Shown in pieces: positions 5,376-18,678 of a DNA stretch of 64,000 nucleotides. Origin of the DNA: Mycobacteroides abscessus ATCC 19977 (GTDB lineage Bacteria; Actinomycetota; Actinomycetes; Mycobacteriales; Mycobacteriaceae); the NCBI RefSeq assembly GCF_000069185.1, contig NC_010397.1, forward strand, positions 496,001-560,000. The letters run 5' to 3'. The notes beneath the pieces were generated by a model. The model made no database searches, had not been told where the DNA came from, and saw only the letters and a program-made list of their open reading frames with translations. The position numbers and the translations under genes are program-made. Position 1 is the first letter of the stretch. Every line of letters starts with the position of its first letter.

Positions 5376-6706
<1,331 letters not shown>

Positions 6707-6710
<4 letters not shown>

Positions 6711-7405
6711 GGCAACCTCCGGCGGAATGCGGTGTCGAACATGATGTTGACCCCGTTGATCAGCGACTGGCCCTTGGCCATCGAATACTCGGTGTACAGG
6801 ATGTCGACCGGTTGTTCTGCTACCCGCCAATGGTTTTCGGAGATCATCGCGATGAACTCGCTGGCGTGACCCATGCCGTTCATGGTGATGTTGAGGCCAT
6901 TGGCGACCGTTCGGTTGAACACGCGCAGACCGTTGTGGGCGTCGGTCAGGTTGAGGCGCCGGGTCCGGGGGCTCAGCAACACAACGGTTTTCAGCACTAT
7001 GCGTTTGATAAGAGGCACATGTCCGGGACCCGAGCCCGCGCCGAAACGAGTGCCGACGATGATATCGAGGGGCTCCAGACGCAGTCTGTCCACCATGGCC
7101 ACCACGTCTTTGACTTGGTGCTGGCCGTCGGCATCGAATGTCACGAAGATCTGCGCACCCGGCTGCGCGCGGGCGTACTCCACGCCGGTTTGGATCGCCG
7201 CGCCCTGCCCGAGATTGACCGGATGCCGGACCACATGCGCGCCGGCGCCATGCGCGAGCGCGGCGGTCCGGTCGACGCTGCCGTCGTCCACGCAGACGAT
7301 ATTGGGGAAGGTGCCGAGTGCCGCGGCGATGACGTCGGCGATGACTGGTCCCTCGTTATAGGCGGGGATGACCAGCCAGACGTCGGTGTTACCGGTGTTG
7401 CTCAC
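6707..7405 (-). CDS. ppgS: Family 2 glycosyltransferase, polyprenyl-phosphate GalNAc synthase-like (PpgS)
   Basis: From GTG 7405 this is a 232-residue GT2 enzyme; a longer open frame reaches 7483 without better support. It begins WLVIPAYNEG, has VCVDDGS and the metal-binding FDADGQHQ, and lacks C-terminal membrane helices. That fits the soluble, DUF2304-dependent dolichol-phosphate-mannose-synthase-like group. Orthology to Rv3631 is supported by coupling to DUF2304 and closeness to galE1. It would charge decaprenyl phosphate with a GalNAc-type sugar used to decorate arabinogalactan with galactosamine. The exact sugar is inferred from the family. Confidence 0.8.
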
Positions 7406-7542
7406 TGGGATCAAGGTAGCACCGGGACCGGCTGTGCGACTGCTGTGCCAGTCCTGTGCCGGTTCTACCGGCGTGACTGACACCCAGGACCGCCAGGATT
7501 TGGCGGAGATTTGGCGGGCTCATCTGCTTCTTTGTCAAGGGT

Positions 7543-7820: not shown

Positions 7821-9206
7821 ATGCAACGGCTGTCTGGGGTAGATGCGGCGTTCTGGCACGCCGAAACGGCGGGCTGGCATATGCATATTGGGGGACTGTC
7901 GATTTACGACCCCACCGATGCGCCGGACTACAGCTTTGAGCGGGTACGCGCCCTCATCGTGGAACGTCTGCCGTCCATGCCGCAACTGCGCTGGCGGGTC
8001 ACCGATGTTCCGCTGGGACTGGACCGGCCGTGGTTCGTCGAAGACGAGGAGCTCGACCCCGACTTTCACATCCGGCGGATCGGCGTACCCGCCCCTGGTG
8101 GCCGCAAGGAGCTGGAAGAGCTTGCCGGACGGCTGATGTCGTACAAACTCGACCGGTCGCGGCCGCTGTGGGAGCTATGGGTCATCGAGGGTGTCGAGGG
8201 CGGGCGGGTGGCCACGCTGACCAAGATGCATCATGCGATCGTCGATGGGGTGTCCGGTGCGGGCCTGGGCGAGATCCTGCTCGATATCGCACCCGAACCG
8301 CGTCCCGCCCCGGACGACACCGTCGGGTCATTGGTGGGGCTCGGGCTACCGAGTCGCGAGCGCATCCTGCTGAGCGCGCTGGTGAATGTCGGTGTCAAGA
8401 CGCCCTATCGCGTGGCCCGGTTGGTCCAACAGACGGTCCGTCAGCAGCTGGCGGTCTTTGGTATGGAGCGTAAATCGCCCGGGTACTTCGAGGCGCCGCA
8501 TACCCGATTCAATGCGCCGGTCTCGCCGCACCGGCGCATTTCCGGGGCACGGCTGGACCTTGCGCGCGTCAAGGCACTCAAGGACGCATTCGGTGTCAAG
8601 GTCAACGATGTGGTACTGGCGATAGTCGCGGGTGCCGTCCGCGACTACCTGGCCAAGCGCGACGAATTCCCGGACAAACCACTTATCGTGCAGATTCCGG
8701 TCTCGGTGCGTACCGAGGAAACCGATGGCGTGGTCGGCAATCAGGTCAGTTCGATGACTGTCTCACTGGCCACTGATATCGACGACCCAGCTGAGCGGAT
8801 CCAGGCGATCTACGAGGGCACCCAGGGTGCCAAGGAAATGGCGCGTGCTATGTCAGCACACCAAATCATGGGGCTGACCGATACCACGCCGCCGGGGCTG
8901 CTGCAGTTGGCGGCACGCGCCTACACCGCCAGCGGATTGTCCCGGAACCTGGCGCCCATCAACCTGGTGCTGTCCAATGTTCCCGGCCCGTCGTTCCCGC
9001 TCTACATGGCCGGAGCGCGGCTGGAGTCGATGATCCCGCTCGGCCCACCGGTCATGGACGTGGCGCTGAACATCACCTGCTTCTCCTACCTGGAGCACAT
9101 GGATTTCGGATTTGTCACCACACCGGAGGTGGCCGCTGATATCGATGAGATGGCCGACGGTCTGGAAGCCGCACTCGTGGAGTTGGAGCACGCCGTGGGG
9201 ATCTGA
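7821..9206 (+). CDS. Wax ester synthase/diacylglycerol acyltransferase (WS/DGAT)
   Basis: A 461-residue protein beginning [12 protein letters not shown], the usual start of this family. The catalytic motif HHxxxDG is at 137-143 (MHHAIVDG). The conserved [11 protein letters not shown] and [10 protein letters not shown] blocks lie in the second half. These enzymes use acyl-CoA to make triacylglycerols or wax esters and are numerous in mycobacteria. The gene lies on the opposite strand between the PpgS and flippase genes, which are adjacent in M. tuberculosis (Rv3630-Rv3631), so it looks like an insertion into that group. Confidence 0.92.
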
Positions 9207-9213
9207 GTGCCGA

Positions 9214-10512
9214 TCAGTCAAAGATGTCTTCGGCGAGCTGTGGATCCCGCCAGAACGCGAGCGCGATCAGGTGCACCACTATCCCGACGACGGGTCCGCC
9301 GAGCAATGCGATCACCGTGCGTTCTTCCAGTCCCAGCGGCAGCAGTAACAGCAGCGCGGAAACCACAGTCGCGCCAACCCATCCCGCGGAGTACGCACGG
9401 TGGCGGGCGTGTGCCACGGTGGCCGCTCCGGTGAGTGTCAACAGCGCGATCATGACCGCACCGGCGGTCAGCCAGCCCAGGAGTGGGCCGCCTGCCTGGT
9501 ATGCGGGATCGAACACCGTTCGCAGCAGCCAGGGGCCGATCGACGCCGCCAGGGCGATACCCGCAGCGCCGACACCTAGGATGATCGCGGCGGGGGTGGC
9601 CAGGGCGCGCAGGCGCCGGTCCTGCTCATCCACGAAGTGAGCGATGAGGTTGCCTTGCAATGCTGTTAGCGGCACCAAAAGGGGTGCGCGGGTCAGTGTG
9701 ACTGCCAGGATCACCACACCGCCGGTGGTGCCCAGGTCGCCCGCCGTCGATTGCAACAGCACCGGGAAGCCCATCACCAGGACCGCGCTGGCCGCTGCCG
9801 CCGCGATCGAATGCCGGGCGCCGCGCAGGAACTCCATGGTGTCCACGAGTGCCGGCACCTTGAGCGCGTCGCGGGTTGGTTTCGAGACCAATGTGAGCAG
9901 CAACCAGGACATCGAGCCTGACACGGTCGCCCACAAGTATCCGACGAGTCCGAGGGTGGCTGCGAAGGTGACGATGGCGACCACCAACCGGATGCCCGCA
10001 TCGGTCACCATGAGAACGCCGTACTGCGTCCAGCGACTTGACCCGGCCAGTGCGCCCAGAGTGGTGGCGTGCATGCAGAAGCCGGCGAGTCCTCCTGCCA
10101 GTAATGCCACACTCAGCCAACGGAACTCGGTGAATACATGCGATGCCCACAGCGGTGCGGTGCCGACGATCAGGACGGCGGAGGCGATCGCGAAAGCGGA
10201 CGCGATCCTTACCGGCAAGGTGGTGGCCAGCGGGGAACGGTCCCGCTGCGCCAGCGACAGCCGCACTTCGCGCGTGGTCTCCTGCAGCAGCCCGTTGGCG
10301 GCACCCGTCACCAAACCGAATGCGCCCCAGAAGACGCCGAATACCGAGAACAACGCGGGACCCAGCTCGCGGGCTGCCAGGTACAGCACGGCGTATCCGC
10401 AGATCGCGCTGACGGCGGTGGCGGCACCGATGCGCGCGACGCTGGAGCGGGTGCTGGGACCGGCGTCGGTCACTTCCGGTCCAAGGGCGGGAGCTGCTTC
10501 TCGTAGAGCCAT
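9214..10512 (-). CDS. MATE/polysaccharide-flippase-like membrane protein (Rv3630-like)
   Basis: A 432-residue protein from the ATG at 10512 (an alternative start lies at 10521), with about twelve hydrophobic helices spread evenly along its length, as in Wzx/MurJ/MATE-type lipid-linked sugar flippases. The N-terminal 28 residues are polar. The start lies about 43 bp inside the end of the M1 peptidase gene, so the two are co-transcribed. By synteny it corresponds to Rv3630, beside ppgS, which suggests flipping of a polyprenyl-phosphate sugar. Because it is also downstream of the NRPS, a role in exporting that product is an alternative. Confidence 0.68.
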   Translation of the reverse strand: MALREAAPALGPEVTDAGPSTRSSVARIGAATAVSAICGYAVLYLAARELGPALFSVFGVFWGAFGLVTGAANGLLQETTREVRLSLAQRDRSPLATTLPVRIASAFAIASAVLIVGTAPLWASHVFTEFRWLSVALLAGGLAGFCMHATTLGALAGSSRWTQYGVLMVTDAGIRLVVAIVTFAATLGLVGYLWATVSGSMSWLLLTLVSKPTRDALKVPALVDTMEFLRGARHSIAAAAASAVLVMGFPVLLQSTAGDLGTTGGVVILAVTLTRAPLLVPLTALQGNLIAHFVDEQDRRLRALATPAAIILGVGAAGIALAASIGPWLLRTVFDPAYQAGGPLLGWLTAGAVMIALLTLTGAATVAHARHRAYSAGWVGATVVSALLLLLPLGLEERTVIALLGGPVVGIVVHLIALAFWRDPQLAEDIFD

Positions 10513-11822
10513 GCCGTCCACAGCGGGCGCAGGGATTCATCGGAGTACCCGGCGGCCAGGCCGGTGAAGTCGTCGGTAATGACGGTGCTGTGCCGATATC
10601 GGGTGGTCCAGTCCTGCAGCAGTGCAAAGAATTTCGTATCACCGAGGCGCAATCGCAGGGCGTGCAATGTCAGTGCTCCGCGCTTGTATACGCGATCGTC
10701 GAACATCAGTTGTGGGCCGGGATCGGCCAGAATCAGGTCTTGCGGTAGATCTTTCAGCTTTTGATGGTAGTGGCGGGCGCGCGCGTCGGCGGTCGGCCCG
10801 CCGGATTCCTCGGACCACAGCCATTCGGCGTAACAGGCAAATCCTTCGTGCAACCAGATGTCGCGCCAGCGGCGCGCGGTAACGCTGTTGCCGAACCACT
10901 GATGGGCCAGCTCGTGCGCCACGAGTCGTTCTGAATGCCGGGAACCGTCGCAATGGTTGGCGCCGAATACCGAAATTCCCTGTGCCTCCAGTGGGATATC
11001 GAGGTCATCATCGGTCACCACCACGGTGTATCCCGCGGCGAACGGATAGGGACCGAACTGTTTGATGAACAGCTTCATCATCTGCGGCTGTCGGCCGAAG
11101 TCGTGCTCGAACCTATCGCGTAGCCGTGATGGCAGCGCAGCGTTCATCGAGATGGGGTTCTTGGCAAGCTTGACCAGCTGGTAGTCGCCGATCTGTAGTG
11201 TCGCCAGATACGGCGCCATGGGCTCGGGCTGTTCGTACGTCCAGGTGGTATGGGCGGCCCGGACGCGTCGGGATATCAACTCTCCATTGGAGATAACGCA
11301 ATATGGGCTGTCGCTGGTGATGACAAACCGATAGCTCGCCTTGGAGCTGGGGTGGTCGTCGCAGGGGAACCAGGATGCCGCACCGTTGGGCTGTCCGGCC
11401 ACCAGCACCCCGTTGGACAGCTCCTCAAATCCGACATCACCCCACATGCTGTTGATCGGGCGTGGTGACCCGCCATAACGAATCACGATGGTCATCGCGG
11501 CACCCGCCGGGATCGCGGATGCCAGTTTTATGGTGATCTTTCCGGCGCGATGACCGAAATGTGTCGGACGTCGACCGTTCACTGTCACCTTCGCGACACC
11601 GAGGGTGTCGGCGAGGTCGAGGGTGAACTCCTTGATGGTGGCCAGGGTGACGGCGGTGATGTTCGCGGTGCCGGTCAGCCGGTTGATGGCCACCTTGTAT
11701 TCGAGGTCCAGCTCGTAGCGGGACACCCGGTACCCGTAGTTGCCGTTTTGGGGCAGATAGGGATCGATGACCGGAGGCCGCGGGGGGAGCCGTTTGGCTG
11801 CCTTTTTGCCGGGTTTGGTCAT
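10470..11822 (-). CDS. M1-family zinc metallopeptidase
   Basis: From ATG 11822 (450 residues) the N-terminal beta-sandwich domain covers about 20-205, then the gluzincin domain. The zinc site is HELAHQW (His303, Glu304, His307) with the third ligand Glu326 in LHEGFA. The usual GAMEN exopeptidase motif is replaced by PLEAQGISVFG. It is shorter than full aminopeptidase N and lacks the large C-terminal domain. The ATG overlaps the TGA of the Pls/PosA synthetase (ATGA), so the two are made together. In epsilon-polylysine producers an M1 peptidase degrades the polymer, so a linked role here is plausible but inferred. Confidence 0.88.
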   Translation of the reverse strand: MTKPGKKAAKRLPPRPPVIDPYLPQNGNYGYRVSRYELDLEYKVAINRLTGTANITAVTLATIKEFTLDLADTLGVAKVTVNGRRPTHFGHRAGKITIKLASAIPAGAAMTIVIRYGGSPRPINSMWGDVGFEELSNGVLVAGQPNGAASWFPCDDHPSSKASYRFVITSDSPYCVISNGELISRRVRAAHTTWTYEQPEPMAPYLATLQIGDYQLVKLAKNPISMNAALPSRLRDRFEHDFGRQPQMMKLFIKQFGPYPFAAGYTVVVTDDDLDIPLEAQGISVFGANHCDGSRHSERLVAHELAHQWFGNSVTARRWRDIWLHEGFACYAEWLWSEESGGPTADARARHYHQKLKDLPQDLILADPGPQLMFDDRVYKRGALTLHALRLRLGDTKFFALLQDWTTRYRHSTVITDDFTGLAAGYSDESLRPLWTAWLYEKQLPPLDRK

Positions 11823-14800
11823 GCGGCCCCGGAATTCTTGTTTGGGGAGACCTTGCCGCTCTTGGGCTTCTTCGGTGCCATCGGATCCAGCTTGCCCCAT
11901 GGCGAAATGGGATTGCCCTGCCACCTGGTGGACGGGGGTACCACGTCACCGCGCACCACCAGGGACGCGGGGCCCACGGTGGCGCCGGCACCGAGCTCGG
12001 CCGCGGGTAGCGCCACGCAGTGCGGCCCCAGCGTGGCGCCTTCGCCCAGGACCACGGTGTCCATCCGCATGATCCGGTCGTGGAACAGATGTGTCTGCAC
12101 CACGCAGCCGCGATTCACGGTCGCGCCCCTGCCCAAGGTCACCAGGTCGGCCTCGGGCAGCCAGTACGTCTCGCACCACACGCCCCGGCCGATCTTGGCG
12201 CCCAGCCCGCGTAGCCACCAGTTCTGCATGATCGTTCCCGACGCGGCACGTGCGAACCAGACGGCGGCAACGGTTTCCACGAAGGTGTCGGCAACCTCGT
12301 TGCGCCAGACGAACGAGGACCAAAGCGGCTTCTCGACGGCCTTGGTGCGGCCCACCACCAACCATTTGGCCACCACACTGACAACACCTGCCACGGCGCC
12401 GGCAATCAGCAGCACCACACCGCTCAGCGCCCCGGCCACCCAGAAATTGAACCCAATGGCGATGTTTTGCAGTGTCAGCAGCACGCCGACGCCGATACCG
12501 AAGGTCACGATGATAGGGATGATGCGGCAGGTCTCCACGATGCCGCGCATCACCTTGAGGCGGAACGGCGGCTCGAAGGTGAGCGTAGAGTCTGCGCCAT
12601 CAGCCTTGCGTCGCAACCGCTTTGGTGGGCTCCCGATCCATGAGGAGCCCGACTTAGCCTTATGTGGAGTCGCGGACAGGACGGCGACCAAGGCGTCGTT
12701 GGGCACTTTGCGTCCGGGCTGGGTGATTCCTGAGTTGCCCAGAAACGCGCGCTTGCCGATCCGGGCCTTGGCGATGTGGATCCAGCCGCCGCCCAATTCG
12801 TAGGAGGCCACCATCGTGTCGTCGGCCAAGAACGCGCCATCGTCGACCTCGGTGAACTTCGGCACCAGCAATGCTGTCGAAATCTCGGTGTCCTTGCCGA
12901 TCTTCGCGCCCAGAATGCGCAGCCACCAAGGCGTGAGCTGGCTGGCATAGATGGGGAACAGGTAGTTGCGCGCGGCGTCCATCAGGCGTTCGGTGGCCCA
13001 CAGCTGCCAACCCTGTCGGCTGCGGACAGGGTGGTAGCCCTCGTGGACGCCGAGTGAGAGCAGTCGCACCAGGACAACGGTGATGGCGGCGTACACGACA
13101 ACACTGACCAGCGCCGCCGCGGGCGTCCACATGAGGGCGGGTACAACGGCTCCGCAGATCGTCGCGGCATCGCGGATGCCGTATGCGACCACGGCCAAGC
13201 CCGCTGCGAGGGCCAGCAGCGGAAGCCCGCCCAGCAGAATCGATGTCAACCCATAGATGGGCACCCATTGTCCCGCGCGGGGCGGTCGGTAGTCGGGCCA
13301 GGGATGACGGGCTTTACCGGATTTGACGGCCGGTGAGCCCTTCCAATACTGGCCGTTCTTGACCCGCCCGACGACCCCGGAAGCCGGTGCGACGTCGGCG
13401 TTCTTGCCGACGACCGCGCCCGGCAGCAGGGTGGTGCGGGCGCCGACGGTGGCGTCGTCGCCGATGACGATGGGGCCGACGTGGAACTTATCGCCATCAA
13501 CCCAATGCCCGGAGAGATCGACCTCTGGTTCGACGGAACTGCGGTCTCCCAGCTCCAACCAGCCGGTGACCGGTGGTGAAGAATGCAGATCGACGCCATT
13601 GCCGACGCGCGCCCCCAGCGCGCGGGCGTAGTAAACCATCCACGGTGCGCCGGAAAGGTTCTCGGCACCACTGGCGGTGGCGAGACGGTCGGCGATCCAC
13701 ACTCGCAGGTGCACGCTGCCGCCGCGCTCATAGGTGCCGGGCTTGACGCCCGACAGTAGCAATCGTGCACCGATGACGGTGATACTCATGCGCCCCACGG
13801 GGGTAATGAACAAGACGAAGGCTGCCAGCAGTACCCACCAGTTGACGGTTACCAACCATGGCACCCCGCTGAATGTCGCGAACACATTGTTGGCCAGGGC
13901 AAGCCATGTCGCCCATTGCAGGCCCGTGAGAGTGGTGAGCGGAATGGTCGCCACCAACTGAGCCAGCTCGGCAAGCCGTGGTACAGGTTTGACGACGCGG
14001 GGCTCCACCTCGATGGGAGGTGCCAGCTCATCGAGATAGGTGGCCAACGATCCGAGTCGCGGCTGGTCGTACAGGTTGGCGACGGTTACCTGCGGATAAC
14101 GTTGCCGCAGCGCCGCAACCAGCTGAGCGGCGGACAACGACCCGCCGCCCAGCGCAAAGAAATCGGCCTCCGGTCCGTCGACGGGGGCGGCCAGGATGTC
14201 CCGCCATAGACCGGCGAGCCACCCCATGGTGCCGCCCAGTTCGGGTGCTTCGTCATCGGCCCCGGCTCCCGGTGGCGGCCAGGGCAGGGCGTTGCGATCG
14301 ACCTTTCCGGATGTGCGCGTGGGCAGCTCATCGAGTTTGACCAGTCGCGGTACCAGCGCGGCCGGAAGCGACTCGGCCAGGCTCGCGCGGGCTGCGGCGA
14401 TATCGAAGTTCGGATCCGCGCTGGCGATATAGCCGACCAGCAACGGGGTGCCGCTGGCGGTCTTGCGCACCGCGGCCGCACCTGCGCTCACACCGGGCAG
14501 GTTGACCAGCGCGGCATCCACCTCGCCCAGTTCGATGCGGCGGCCACCGACTTTCACCTGGTCGTCGGCGCGGCCCTGGAAGTACAACCCGTCCGGTTCC
14601 AGGCGTACCAGATCTCCGCTTCGGTAGGCTCTCGACCAACCCAAAGTATCGAGCGGAGCGTACTTTTCGGCATCCTTTTCTGGGTCCAGGTACTTGGCCA
14701 GGCCGATACCGCCGATGACCAGTTCGCCGACCTCGCCGTAGCCGACCTGGTTGCCGTGAGGGTCCACGACCGCCAGATCCCAACCGGGCAGCGGCAATCC

Positions 14801-15847
14801 GATGCTGACGGGACTCACTCCGTCGAGCCTGGCCGCGCATGCCACCACGGTCGCCTCGGTGGGCCCGTAGGTGTTCCAGACCTCGCGTGTGGCACCGTCC
14901 TCGCCGGTGGCCAGCCGTTCGGCCAGGTCGGGTGGGCACGCCTCGCCACCGAAGATCAGCAGTCGCACCGCCTCCAGCGCCTCGGCCGGCCACAGCGCGG
15001 CCAGAGTGGGCACCGTCGAGACCACGGTGACATCGCGCGAAACCAGCCATGGACCCAGATCCATGCCGCTGCGCACCAGTGAACGGGGCGCCGGAACCAG
15101 GCAAGCGCCGTACCGCCACGCCAACCACATCTCCTCGCACGAGGCGTCGAAGGCCACGGACAGTCCGGCAAGTACCCGATCGTCCGGACCGATCGGGTTG
15201 TCCTGCAAGAACATCTGTGCTTCAGCATCGACAAACGCGGCTGCGTTGCGATGAGTCACCGCCACCCCCTTGGGGGTGCCGGTGGAACCCGAGGTGAAGA
15301 TGATCCATGCGTCGTCGCGGGGCGTCGGTTTGGCGGCCCGCCACCCACGCGACGATCCGGGTCCGCGAACCAGTCCGTCGGGAGTGATCACGGCGGCCAC
15401 CTGTGCCTCGCCGAACACCAGCGCGGCGCGCTCGTCGGGGTCGTCGGCATCGACGGGCACGTAGGCGGCGCCCGCTGCCAGGGTCGCGAGGATCGCCACA
15501 TACAGCGAGTAGCTGCCCGACGGCATCCGGATACCGACGCGGTCACCACGCCCGATGCCGCGGGCGCCGAGCCATTCGACGCTCGCTTCCATGTCGACGA
15601 TCAGCTCCGAATAGGTGAGCTGAATGGTGCCGTCGTCGATGGCCGGCGCATCGGGATTCTCCGCGGCGGTGGCGTAGAGGATGTCGATCAGAGTCCGCGC
15701 CGCGGGCGCCGACCTACCGAGCAGATATTGCGGGGGTACCGGGTGCGCCGGGGCTTGCTGGGCGACGGGTTGAGCCGCGTGCTCAGGCGCCGAATCCGGT
15801 GCCTCTTGGTGCGCGCGGCTCATGGGTGACTCGTCGGGGCCGGTCAC
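11819..15847 (-). CDS. Pls/PosA-type single-module non-ribosomal peptide synthetase with membrane C-terminal half
   Basis: A 1342-residue protein from GTG 15847, chosen because GAGGAG lies six bases upstream. The adenylation domain (about 50-520) has IIFTSGSTGTPKG (182-194), NTYGPTE (325-331), YRSGDL (408-413) and the SGKVDRNA lysine (515). A carrier domain follows with LGGGS (Ser570). There is no condensation or thioesterase domain. The second half has about six hydrophobic helices alternating with three hexapeptide-like left-handed beta-helix regions (around 750-850, 985-1060 and 1215-1320). This is the layout of epsilon-poly-L-lysine synthetase (Pls), whose tandem C-terminal domains make isopeptide bonds. 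The amino acid used cannot be read reliably. Confidence 0.9.
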   Translation of the reverse strand: MTGPDESPMSRAHQEAPDSAPEHAAQPVAQQAPAHPVPPQYLLGRSAPAARTLIDILYATAAENPDAPAIDDGTIQLTYSELIVDMEASVEWLGARGIGRGDRVGIRMPSGSYSLYVAILATLAAGAAYVPVDADDPDERAALVFGEAQVAAVITPDGLVRGPGSSRGWRAAKPTPRDDAWIIFTSGSTGTPKGVAVTHRNAAAFVDAEAQMFLQDNPIGPDDRVLAGLSVAFDASCEEMWLAWRYGACLVPAPRSLVRSGMDLGPWLVSRDVTVVSTVPTLAALWPAEALEAVRLLIFGGEACPPDLAERLATGEDGATREVWNTYGPTEATVVACAARLDGVSPVSIGLPLPGWDLAVVDPHGNQVGYGEVGELVIGGIGLAKYLDPEKDAEKYAPLDTLGWSRAYRSGDLVRLEPDGLYFQGRADDQVKVGGRRIELGEVDAALVNLPGVSAGAAAVRKTASGTPLLVGYIASADPNFDIAAARASLAESLPAALVPRLVKLDELPTRTSGKVDRNALPWPPPGAGADDEAPELGGTMGWLAGLWRDILAAPVDGPEADFFALGGGSLSAAQLVAALRQRYPQVTVANLYDQPRLGSLATYLDELAPPIEVEPRVVKPVPRLAELAQLVATIPLTTLTGLQWATWLALANNVFATFSGVPWLVTVNWWVLLAAFVLFITPVGRMSITVIGARLLLSGVKPGTYERGGSVHLRVWIADRLATASGAENLSGAPWMVYYARALGARVGNGVDLHSSPPVTGWLELGDRSSVEPEVDLSGHWVDGDKFHVGPIVIGDDATVGARTTLLPGAVVGKNADVAPASGVVGRVKNGQYWKGSPAVKSGKARHPWPDYRPPRAGQWVPIYGLTSILLGGLPLLALAAGLAVVAYGIRDAATICGAVVPALMWTPAAALVSVVVYAAITVVLVRLLSLGVHEGYHPVRSRQGWQLWATERLMDAARNYLFPIYASQLTPWWLRILGAKIGKDTEISTALLVPKFTEVDDGAFLADDTMVASYELGGGWIHIAKARIGKRAFLGNSGITQPGRKVPNDALVAVLSATPHKAKSGSSWIGSPPKRLRRKADGADSTLTFEPPFRLKVMRGIVETCRIIPIIVTFGIGVGVLLTLQNIAIGFNFWVAGALSGVVLLIAGAVAGVVSVVAKWLVVGRTKAVEKPLWSSFVWRNEVADTFVETVAAVWFARAASGTIMQNWWLRGLGAKIGRGVWCETYWLPEADLVTLGRGATVNRGCVVQTHLFHDRIMRMDTVVLGEGATLGPHCVALPAAELGAGATVGPASLVVRGDVVPPSTRWQGNPISPWGKLDPMAPKKPKSGKVSPNKNSGAA

Positions 15848-16015: not shown

Positions 16016-16981
16016 CTATGGAGCCGTGCGCCGGGTCTTGTACAAGCTAGCGACCGTGGTGACGAGCAGGGTCACCACGATCACCGCAAGGCTTGCCAGC
16101 GTGGGAATCTCGGGCACGTGTACCGGCTCGCCGCCGTTGATGAACGGCAGTTCATTTTCGTGCAACGCGTGCAGGATCAGTTTGACGCCGATGAAGAACA
16201 AGATGAACGCCAACCCCTGCGATAGGTACACCAGACGCTTAAGCATGTCGCCGAGCAGGAAGTACAGCTGACGCAGACCCATGAGAGCGAACACATTGGC
16301 CGTGAATACCAGGTATGGCTCTTTGGTGAGCCCGTAGATGGCGGGGATCGAGTCGAGGGCGAAGAGCAGGTCGGTGGTACCCAGTGCGACGATCACCAAA
16401 AACATCGGTGTCATCAGTCGCGTTCCGTTTTCCCGCACCCACAAGCGCAGACCGTCCCACTTATCGGTGGTCCGCAGGTGCTTGCGGGCGAACTGCACTA
16501 CGGCATTGTCGGCGTCGTCGTCGTGTTCGGTATCGCGCGCGAGGTTGATGGCGGTGTACACCAGGAACGCGCCAAAAAGGTAGAAGATCCAGGAGAACTG
16601 GTTGATGGCCACCGCGCCCAGGGCAATGAAGATGCCGCGGAAGATCAGGGCCAGGATGATGCCGACCAGCAGGGCTTCTTGCTGATAGACCCGGGGCACT
16701 TTGAAGCTGGCCATGATGATCAGGAAGATGAACAGGTTGTCCACCGACAGGCTGTACTCGGTGAGCCAGCCCGCGTAGAACTCCAGCCCGTACTGGCTCC
16801 CGTGGAAGAACCACACCCACAGGCCGAAGGCCACCGCAAGCCCTACGTAGATGCTGAGAGCGGTCGCGGTTTCGCGTGTCGAGGGCTCGTGGGGTTGTCG
16901 GCCGATCACGATGACGTCGACCAACAGGATCGCGACCGTGACGGCCAGGGTGATGATCCACTCGAGCTGGGACACCTGCAT
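16016..16981 (-). CDS. TerC-family integral membrane protein (probable Mn2+ exporter)
   Basis: From ATG 16981, with GGAGG eight bases upstream, this is a 321-residue protein with about nine membrane helices. The TerC signatures YSLSVDNLFIF and LLFALDSIPAIYGLT carry the conserved membrane aspartates. Alx and YceF-type TerC proteins export manganese and are commonly controlled by the yybP-ykoY Mn2+ riboswitch; a candidate for that element with its SD-masking hairpin lies directly upstream. Residues upstream of this ATG in a longer open frame overlap the riboswitch and are unlikely to be translated. Confidence 0.9.
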   Translation of the reverse strand: MQVSQLEWIITLAVTVAILLVDVIVIGRQPHEPSTRETATALSIYVGLAVAFGLWVWFFHGSQYGLEFYAGWLTEYSLSVDNLFIFLIIMASFKVPRVYQQEALLVGIILALIFRGIFIALGAVAINQFSWIFYLFGAFLVYTAINLARDTEHDDDADNAVVQFARKHLRTTDKWDGLRLWVRENGTRLMTPMFLVIVALGTTDLLFALDSIPAIYGLTKEPYLVFTANVFALMGLRQLYFLLGDMLKRLVYLSQGLAFILFFIGVKLILHALHENELPFINGGEPVHVPEIPTLASLAVIVVTLLVTTVASLYKTRRTAP

Positions 16982-16983
16982 TT

Positions 16984-17112
16984 CAGAACCTCCGGTCGTC
17001 AAAACGCCGGAGGTCTCTTCCGCCGGCAGATGGCCGGCCCGCGGCACCGACCGGACCGCCAATGGCCGATGTGATGACGACACCGCAGCGAAGGAATACT
17101 CCCCTCCAGTAG
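16984..17112 (-). ncRNA. Candidate yybP-ykoY (Mn2+) riboswitch upstream of terC
   Basis: On the minus strand the hallmark GGGGAGTA lies at 17104-17097, about 120 nt before the terC ATG. A GTCATCAC stretch follows at the place where the second metal-binding loop is expected. The 3' end holds a perfect 8-bp hairpin: ACCTCCGG (17014-17007), an 11-nt loop, then CCGGAGGT (16995-16988), which contains and hides the terC ribosome binding site. The TerC-family target is a known yybP-ykoY client. The boundaries are approximate. Confidence 0.72.
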
Positions 17113-17326: not shown

Positions 17327-17382
17327 AACCGTGCGTGGCAAGCGTGGACTCGCCGGGCGGGTCCGGTGAGATGGGATGTCAC

Positions 17383-18678
17383 ATGTCAGTGTCCACACAA
17401 GCGGTGTCCGGGCAGCCATTCGCGCGGGTGGTCGGAGCCGACACCAAAGTTCCTTTGGCTCACGGAGGCTGGGTCAGATACGCAAACTTTGATTACGCTG
17501 CCAGCGCGCCCGCACTCTGCGATGTCGCGGACCGGGTCACCGAACTGCTGCCGTATTACGCCAGCGTGCATCGCGGCGCGGGCTACGCCTCACGGGTCTG
17601 CACCCGGCTCTATGAGGGGGCGCGGGAAACCGTCGGCCGTTTTGTCGGCGCCCGCGCCGACCACCACGTGATCTTTACCCGCAACACCACGGATTCGCTC
17701 AATCTGCTGGCGTCTGCGGTGCCAGGCGAGGTAGTTGTGCTCGATATAGAACACCACGCAAACCTGTTGACCTGGCAGCGATATGGCGCCCGGGTAGTGG
17801 CGCACCGAACGACCGTGCCGGATACCGTTGCCGCGTTGGACGAGGAGCTGGCGCGCCGGCCGACCGCGCTGCTGGCCGTCACCGGCGCGTCCAACGTCAC
17901 CGGTGAGGTACTTCCGCTCGGCGAACTCGCGGCGGCAGCCCACCGGAACGGAGCGCGGATCGCCGTCGACGGTGCGCAACTGGCTCCGCACCGACGAATT
18001 GACCTGGCAGCAGCCGGGATTGACTACTTGGCGTTCTCCGGGCACAAGCTGTACGCACCGTTCGGTGCAGGAGTCCTTGTGGGGCAAGCTGACTGGCTTG
18101 ACACGGCGCGGCCCTATCTGGCCGGTGGAGGCGCTGTCCGCAATGTGGATATCGATGAGGCGCAATGGTTCACCGGCCCGCAGCGGCATGAGGCGGGTAC
18201 GCCCAATGTGGTCGGGGTCGCAGCGATTGCTGCCGCGTGTGAGGCGCTGACCGTCCTCGGCGACCTAGGTCACGCCGAGGACGCGCTCACCGTGCAACTG
18301 CGTGATGGGCTCGAGGCGATTGAAGGCGTTGATACGCTGCGTATTTGGGAGGGCGATCGCGACGTACTGGGCATCGTGTCTTTTACGGTCGCCGGGTATG
18401 CGCCGTCGGTTGTCGCCGCCTACCTGTCAGCCGAGCACGGTATCGGGCTGCGTGACGGACGATTCTGCGCGCACCCGCTGTTGGCCAGACTCGGCGCGCC
18501 GGGTGGTGCGCTACGGGCGAGTATCGGGCTGGGCACCACGGCCGGCGACATCGCGCGCCTGCTCGGCGCGATCAACGAACTCGTCCGGCGCGGACCGGGC
18601 TTGGCCTACATCGAGCGTGACGGTCAGATCGGACCGGTGGACGATCCGCGCCCGCTCCCGGATTTCCTGGCGGCCTGA
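17383..18678 (+). CDS. Class V aminotransferase, cysteine desulfurase-like
   Basis: From ATG 17383 this gives 431 residues; a GTG at 17335 is also in frame but falls almost against the riboswitch. The PLP lysine is in SGHK (Lys222), with VDGAQ (Asp196) contacting the pyridine ring. HHANLL and the C-terminal LRDGRFCAHPLL provide a Cys at the position used by SufS/CsdA-type desulfurases. Control by a SAM-IV riboswitch fits a role in sulfur or methionine metabolism. It could be a desulfurase, a selenocysteine lyase or a related C-S lyase; the sequence does not decide. Confidence 0.85.
   Translation: MSVSTQAVSGQPFARVVGADTKVPLAHGGWVRYANFDYAASAPALCDVADRVTELLPYYASVHRGAGYASRVCTRLYEGARETVGRFVGARADHHVIFTRNTTDSLNLLASAVPGEVVVLDIEHHANLLTWQRYGARVVAHRTTVPDTVAALDEELARRPTALLAVTGASNVTGEVLPLGELAAAAHRNGARIAVDGAQLAPHRRIDLAAAGIDYLAFSGHKLYAPFGAGVLVGQADWLDTARPYLAGGGAVRNVDIDEAQWFTGPQRHEAGTPNVVGVAAIAAACEALTVLGDLGHAEDALTVQLRDGLEAIEGVDTLRIWEGDRDVLGIVSFTVAGYAPSVVAAYLSAEHGIGLRDGRFCAHPLLARLGAPGGALRASIGLGTTAGDIARLLGAINELVRRGPGLAYIERDGQIGPVDDPRPLPDFLAA

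Follow-up and report, generated by a model that had tools for sequence, protein, structure and literature searches.

The window analysed in this study, a 64,000-nucleotide stretch of Mycobacteroides abscessus ATCC 19977 (contig NC_010397.1, positions 496,001 to 560,000), contains three genes at positions 9214-15847, all on the minus strand and running leftwards, which encode a Pls/PosA-family synthetase (pls), an M1 peptidase and a flippase-like transporter. Sequence comparisons point to pls and the M1 gene as a mycobacterial pair encoding a putative epsilon-poly(or oligo)-L-lysine synthetase and its degradase, a reading to which we give a probability of roughly 0.78. A literature search, partly judged by titles and the beginnings of abstracts, returned no description of a mycobacterial Pls. 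Pairs of this kind are known, and the idea of a categorically new operon was rejected because a pls/degradase pair with a 4-base-pair overlap has already been published; what is new, within the literature searched, is the spread of the pair in mycobacteria and the presence of a third coupled gene.

Predicted lysine specificity of the synthetase

A first-pass annotation of the window had described the synthetase as a 1342-residue protein of the Pls/PosA type with one adenylation and one carrier domain, and this was borne out. A single AMP-binding domain and a single PP-binding domain (Pfam and NCBIfam) precede a membrane half, in which residues 629-1314 match TIGR02353 with 737.1 bits against a cut-off of 423.1. 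The solved structure nearest to the adenylation domain is the epsilon-polylysine synthetase 7wew (653.6 bits; next chain, 361.3). Comparison of the specificity residues with a Pls enzyme, which the annotation had called for, gave the code DAESIGTVVK, identical to that of 7wew, whose pocket residues were taken by eye from the alignment of the adenylation domains. Of 122 related loci, the 120 complete ones all carry the same code, and the remaining two are truncated and agree where present. In PosA, the Asp at code position 1 and the Glu at position 3 are reported to be essential, and position 2 is described as a size gauge, with alanine for lysine, methionine for ornithine and phenylalanine for shorter diamino acids (PMC10522769). 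Because the code equals that of 7wew and is invariant in the complete relatives, L-lysine is the predicted monomer. When 7wew was searched against 345 genomes from across the class, the matches listed comprised a group with 61-73% identity (>500 bits), to which the M. abscessus synthetase belongs, and a group with 39-47% identity (<285 bits). The M. abscessus protein is also 96% identical to the Pls of M. franklinii (L075), and the flippase of the window has 98% identity to a cluster that includes a protein assigned to Mycobacteroides abscessus.

Related synthetases are reported to use other monomers (PMC10522769), and the enzyme might instead make another cationic or mixed oligomer (of ornithine, beta-lysine or diaminobutyrate) or an isopeptide of short length bound to an envelope component. 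This is unlikely, as the code matches that of the lysine enzyme, the code of PosA being DMEHNGTVSK, and the genes scanned in the 64-kb window included no aminomutase-like neighbour.

In the AlphaFold model of the last 736 residues (mean predicted local distance difference test (pLDDT) score, 75.5), long helices occur in three pairs that alternate with three strand-turn blocks; the first block lies partly below a pLDDT of 50. By hydropathy, residues 661-694, 862-935 and 1102-1166 are membrane stretches, which supports five of the six helices; the opening helix of the first pair stays below the threshold. Foldseek returned hexapeptide acyltransferases with low TM-scores, and Pfam detects one hexapeptide stretch. 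The three strand-turn blocks of the model may correspond to the three beta-helix blocks of the annotation, but Pfam picks out a single stretch and part of the first block has low confidence. In the proposed pathway, the adenylation domain would activate L-lysine and load it onto Ser570 of the carrier domain, and the three helix-pair/beta-helix units of the membrane half would link the lysines by isopeptide bonds and deliver the chain at the membrane.

Co-inheritance of pls with a PldII-type M1 peptidase

To count pls and ppgS (a neighbouring gene, see below) among genomes, searches were made with TIGR02353 and NF058614, respectively. As weak matches to these models also appeared in 13 of 14 control genomes, above the cut-off in one, only matches above the cut-offs were counted. 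Counted in this way, pls is present in 149 of 198 genomes of the same genus, or roughly three in four of the species sampled. Its position could be determined in 148 of them, and in 147 of these the M1 gene lies downstream on the same strand, so that the M1 gene as a chance neighbour was rejected. A high-scoring M1 without a full-scoring pls occurs in three genomes, all with partial pls: in G176 pls (418.7 bits) runs off the end of a contig, G126 is a 63% complete assembly, and in G045 only a partial pls match, which looks incomplete, lies upstream of M1. Outside the genus, the M1 gene follows pls on the same strand in all 20 chosen loci (6 from the same family, 1 from the same order and 13 from other families of the class), with 45-62% identity to the M. 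abscessus M1 protein; in five outside-genus loci from one large-genome actinomycete family the identity is 50-54%.

The overlap of the synthetase stop with the M1 start (ATGA), as given in the first-pass annotation, was confirmed at 11819..11822. Among 80 named loci, a script scored a 4-nucleotide overlap in 52 and TGATG in 14, and inspection added L040 and L080, giving 68 of 80; 11 of the other loci have another junction and one has no M1 because the contig ends. The alignment of pls ends comprised M. abscessus and 27 of 74 usable ends, the remaining six of the 80 loci having no stop or an internal stop. In M. abscessus, pls starts with GTG, preceded by GAGGAG 4 bases upstream, and M1 has 450 residues from the overlapping start, the longest reading frame giving 484. 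Because its start sits in the pls stop, synthesis of the M1 peptidase is probably tied to that of the synthetase.

The zinc site of the M1 peptidase, HELAH (303-307) with E326, is intact, and at least 98% of 101 M1 proteins carry each element (a set from which proteins with stops or ambiguous letters had been dropped). The M1 family, the zinc site and the overlapping position beside pls support assignment to the PldII type, PldII itself being an M1 enzyme. M1 peptidases accept broad substrates, and the nearest solved relative, 6a8z (140 bits), is a putative zinc metalloprotease rather than a polymer-degrading enzyme, which would fit a general aminopeptidase whose place after pls is historical. 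Such an enzyme is hard to reconcile with the near-strict co-presence and co-absence of M1 and pls in the 198 genomes and with the overlapping starts across several genera, and we regard it as very improbable. A PldII-type M1 peptidase would instead hydrolyse the isopeptide-linked chain from within the cytosol, serving self-protection and recycling.

Published systems offer precedents for such a pair. In Streptomyces albulus, pldII, encoding the main degradase, adjoins pls with a 4-base-pair overlap in one operon (PMC4361855); it is reported to be translationally coupled and important for self-protection, its product is described as an aminopeptidase, and its repression changed the length distribution of the polymer and lowered tolerance (PMC9223678). 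A pls-peptidase operon also occurs in Corynebacterium (PMC8117764), and poly-lysine synthetases have been predicted in Nocardia (PMC4035055). Several points weigh against a functioning lysine polymer system in mycobacteria. Corynebacterium variabile made no detectable polymer natively, polymer appearing after expression in S. coelicolor (PMC8117764), and the mycobacterial genes may therefore likewise be silent or make something short. Inactivation of Pld and PldII was reported to change neither the yield nor the length of the polymer (PMC8506220), which speaks against simple control of length by the degradase. PldII reportedly lies outside the membrane (PMC9223678); by contrast, the M. abscessus M1 has no signal peptide, and a hydrophobic N-terminus was seen neither in it nor in its relatives in the set of 101 proteins. 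Finally, one genome (G183) carries a lower-scoring pls (592 bits) without M1.

In another genome (G030), pls occurs a second time (694 bits) on a separate contig; this copy and the pls of G183 are possibly paralogues with a different product.

The make-and-degrade system put forward as new biology in the first-pass annotation is supported in its substance by the lysine code and the co-inherited PldII-like peptidase, but is not new as a system, the pairs of S. albulus and Corynebacterium being already in print. As pls is present in so many of the genomes and nearly always accompanied by M1, an antimicrobial polycation, or a like envelope polymer, may be an overlooked mycobacterial product, apparently including the M. 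abscessus group.

A flippase-like gene shared between pls-M1 and ppgS

The flippase-like gene was found after M1 as annotated, and its start also overlaps the preceding stop (GTGA), so that both downstream genes have the layout of translational coupling. A 4-nucleotide overlap between M1 and the flippase gene is present in 27 of 30 loci, a count in which L040 was mis-scored. Flippase matches (E <= 0.001) were obtained in 195 of the 198 genomes, the weakest in G115 (2.7e-39, five matches) and the next weakest best match in G112 (1.0e-90). Flippase, pls and ppgS, which encodes the polyprenyl-phospho-N-acetylgalactosaminyl synthase, occur together in 99 genomes; 48 have pls and the flippase without ppgS, and 47 have ppgS and the flippase without pls (G045, G126 and G176 among them, which hold M1 and a partial pls). 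The others are one genome with pls alone (G015, a fragmented assembly with partial ppgS), one with the flippase alone (G072, scored 100% complete) and two with none of the three (G005 and G052, 84 and 87% complete). The flippase thus survives the loss of either pls or ppgS. The absence of pls is associated with the presence of ppgS (Fisher p 7e-5, uncorrected for shared ancestry and given as a pattern only).

Export of the polymer by this protein, as raised in the first-pass annotation, would make pls-M1-flippase a make-cut-export operon. This would agree with the overlap, with the immediate succession of M1 and flippase in 99 of the 115 genomes in which both positions are listed (flippase positions being listed for 150 genomes) and with the retention of the flippase together with pls where ppgS falls below the cut-off. 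The distribution weakens the claim, however, since the flippase persists in the 47 ppgS genomes without full-scoring pls, and in 16 pls genomes it lies elsewhere, adjoining ppgS and not M1. None of the 20 loci from outside the genus was found to have it next to pls, and 13 of 15 other genomes searched whole gave no match, the two hits scoring 481 and 27 bits. In addition, Pls has been described as excreting its own product (PMC8117764). An exporting role is accordingly improbable, and a dedicated polylysine exporter was rejected because the gene is nearly universal in the genus and persists without pls.

The annotation also allowed that the flippase belongs to the adjacent cell-wall sugar genes. 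It might be the flippase for polyprenyl-phospho-galactosamine in arabinogalactan decoration, an Rv3630-like protein beside PpgS with pls-M1 merely upstream; by synteny, the M. tuberculosis counterparts would be Rv3629c and Rv3630-Rv3632. Consistent with this role, ppgS lies 46-117 nucleotides downstream of the flippase in all 16 pls genomes with a relocated flippase, and less than 200 nucleotides away in 31 of 32 listed pls-less genomes. Against it, the flippase is kept in the 48 pls genomes with ppgS below the cut-off, and the 40 of these with a listed flippase position include none of the non-adjacent cases (compared by eye); the complete genome G072 moreover has the flippase with neither partner. 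Six mycobacterial loci (L042, L045, L046, L047, L051 and L104), with no ppgS nearby and from genomes without full-scoring ppgS, carry the flippase after pls-M1 and then a 596-residue membrane protein family. The link to the sugar genes therefore stands as far as adjacency goes, but a flippase serving PpgS only was rejected because it persists without ppgS.

Pfam and NCBIfam scans gave no family model matching the flippase, and structure comparison revealed the fold of the MOP superfamily. VIA-align ranks a lipid III flippase first, which favours the galactosamine role, whereas the Z ranges of WzxE and MATE overlap by conformation (24.9-29.8 against up to 26.6) and the lowest E-values of Foldseek are those of MATE proteins. 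In an alignment of M. abscessus with 26 of the 30 flippases, the conserved charged residues in the predicted helices are 8 Arg, 1 Asp and 1 Glu; if these residues line the cavity, such mostly-Arg helices would fit anionic lipid-linked substrates better than a polycation, for which they would be unexpected. On balance, the galactosamine role is credible, at somewhat less than even odds.

In the literature, Rv3629c, Rv3630, Rv3631 and Rv3633 are listed as associated with Rv3632 (PMC6487176), and Rv3630 is named as a putative drug antiporter (PMC8562490). The galactosamine pathway of arabinogalactan has been described, and the available parts of these accounts name no flippase for it (PMC9671496, PMC7502851). 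The shared flippase is a candidate for this flipping step.

A broader, rather doubtful possibility is that all four genes (for Pls, M1, the flippase and PpgS) belong to a single module of the mycobacterial envelope setting the positive charge of the wall, with lysine polymer and galactosamine as alternative cationic decorations and the flippase serving whichever partner is present. Such a module would explain the survival of the flippase after loss of one partner gene or the other, and why two of the three flippase-less genomes lack both partners; G015 (pls and partial ppgS, no flippase found) and G072 (flippase only) are exceptions to it. In the reading that we favour, the coupled third gene would encode an envelope transporter that nearly all genomes of the genus possess and that the synthetase-degradase pair has in common with the ppgS locus; its cargo would more likely be a polyprenyl-linked envelope precursor than polylysine.

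Organization and variation of the locus

The features of the locus are listed in Table 1.

Table 1 Features of the pls locus in the window (positions counted from the first nucleotide of the window; A, adenylation; T, carrier; aa, amino acids)
Feature	Position	Strand	Description	Basis
pls	11819..15847	-	Pls/PosA-family synthetase, 1342 aa, A - T - membrane half	TIGR02353; A-domain match to 7wew
Adenylation domain	14285..15673	-	about residues 59-521	Pfam PF00501, NCBIfam
Substrate pocket	14843..15148	-	D234 A235 E238 S277 I298 G300 T326 V334 V335 (with K515: DAESIGTVVK)	
Carrier (T) domain	14033..14221	-	phosphopantetheine Ser570 in LGGGSL	PF00550
Membrane half	11906..13963	-	3 long-helix pairs, beta-helix-like block after each	TIGR02353 (residues 629-1314), AlphaFold model, hydropathy, Foldseek
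ATGA overlap	11819..11822	-	pls stop 11819-11821, M1 start at 11822	
M1 peptidase	10470..11822	-	PldII-like, 450 aa	Pfam PF01433/PF17900; HELAH 303-307 and E326
GTGA overlap	10470..10473	-	M1 stop/flippase start	
Flippase-like gene	9214..10473	-	MOP-superfamily flippase-like transporter, 419 aa	
ppgS (context)	6707..7483	-	polyprenyl-phospho-N-acetylgalactosaminyl synthase	NF058614, 424.2 bits (cut-off 370)
DUF2304 gene (context)	6312..6830	-	protein after ppgS	PF10066
terC (context)	16016..17083	-	TerC-family membrane protein upstream of pls	PF03741
Wax-ester synthase/DGAT gene	7821-9206	+	opposite strand, between flippase and ppgS	
Aminotransferase gene	17335-18678	+	SufS-like, class V, near pls	

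In 21 of the 23 named loci having both genes, terC and pls are divergent, with 123-291 nucleotides between the hits in 20 and 2039 in one; the orientation of terC is reversed in M. abscessus and its two closest relatives (L032 and L075). Three of 11 pls-less loci (L115, L118 and L120) contain terC, there divergent from the flippase gene at a distance of 113-276 nucleotides. Here terC and the flippase gene are direct neighbours, so that at the gene level pls-M1 is the difference between terC and the flippase. The site is apparently empty in some lineages without the pair, which makes the role of the pair testable by comparison of its natural presence and absence. The order pls-M1-flippase is also found in records of Williamsia, Speluncibacter and Dietzia (L074, L082 and L109), which suggests, with no tree behind it, that presence of the pair is the older state and its loss came later. 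In six mycobacterial loci (L128, L056, L059, L060, L065 and L103), pls-M1 lies at the other end of the locus, downstream of genes for 276-residue and 596-residue proteins, suggesting relocation within the locus.

Among the loci compared, L032 and L075, the two nearest relatives, are the only ones in which the wax-ester synthase/DGAT gene was seen at the same place. In 19 further loci, mostly from Rhodococcus and Nocardia, and in L082, a relative of the aminotransferase gene precedes pls in divergent orientation; it is possibly an extra partner of the pls-M1 pair.

Comparison with known systems

The mycobacterial locus most resembles pls-pldII of S. albulus, with which it shares the architecture of adenylation domain, carrier domain and membrane half and the adjoining degradase gene with a 4-base-pair overlap. 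The adenylation code is likewise shared with 7wew, the S. albulus enzyme. The locus differs in its mycobacterial host and in that the flippase gene is coupled as a third gene, and its M1 peptidase lacks an export signal, whereas PldII is reported outside the membrane. The Pls of C. variabile is a coryneform relative with the same pls-peptidase operon; its activity was shown in S. coelicolor, and the available part of the report does not mention a flippase gene (PMC8117764). PosA, the delta-poly-L-ornithine synthetase of Acinetobacter baumannii, belongs to the same family and has the same domain order, but differs in its code, its ornithine monomer and its single-gene operon (PMC10522769). The flippase-like protein has about 14% identity to the WzxE lipid III flippase, MurJ and MATE proteins of the MOP superfamily, and WzxE and MATE are not clearly separated as its relatives. 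Its genomic company is that of the arabinogalactan-galactosamine locus (the Rv3630-Rv3632 region), in which a flippase-like gene, ppgS and a DUF2304 gene stand in the same order; what sets M. abscessus apart from that region is the pls-M1 pair upstream.

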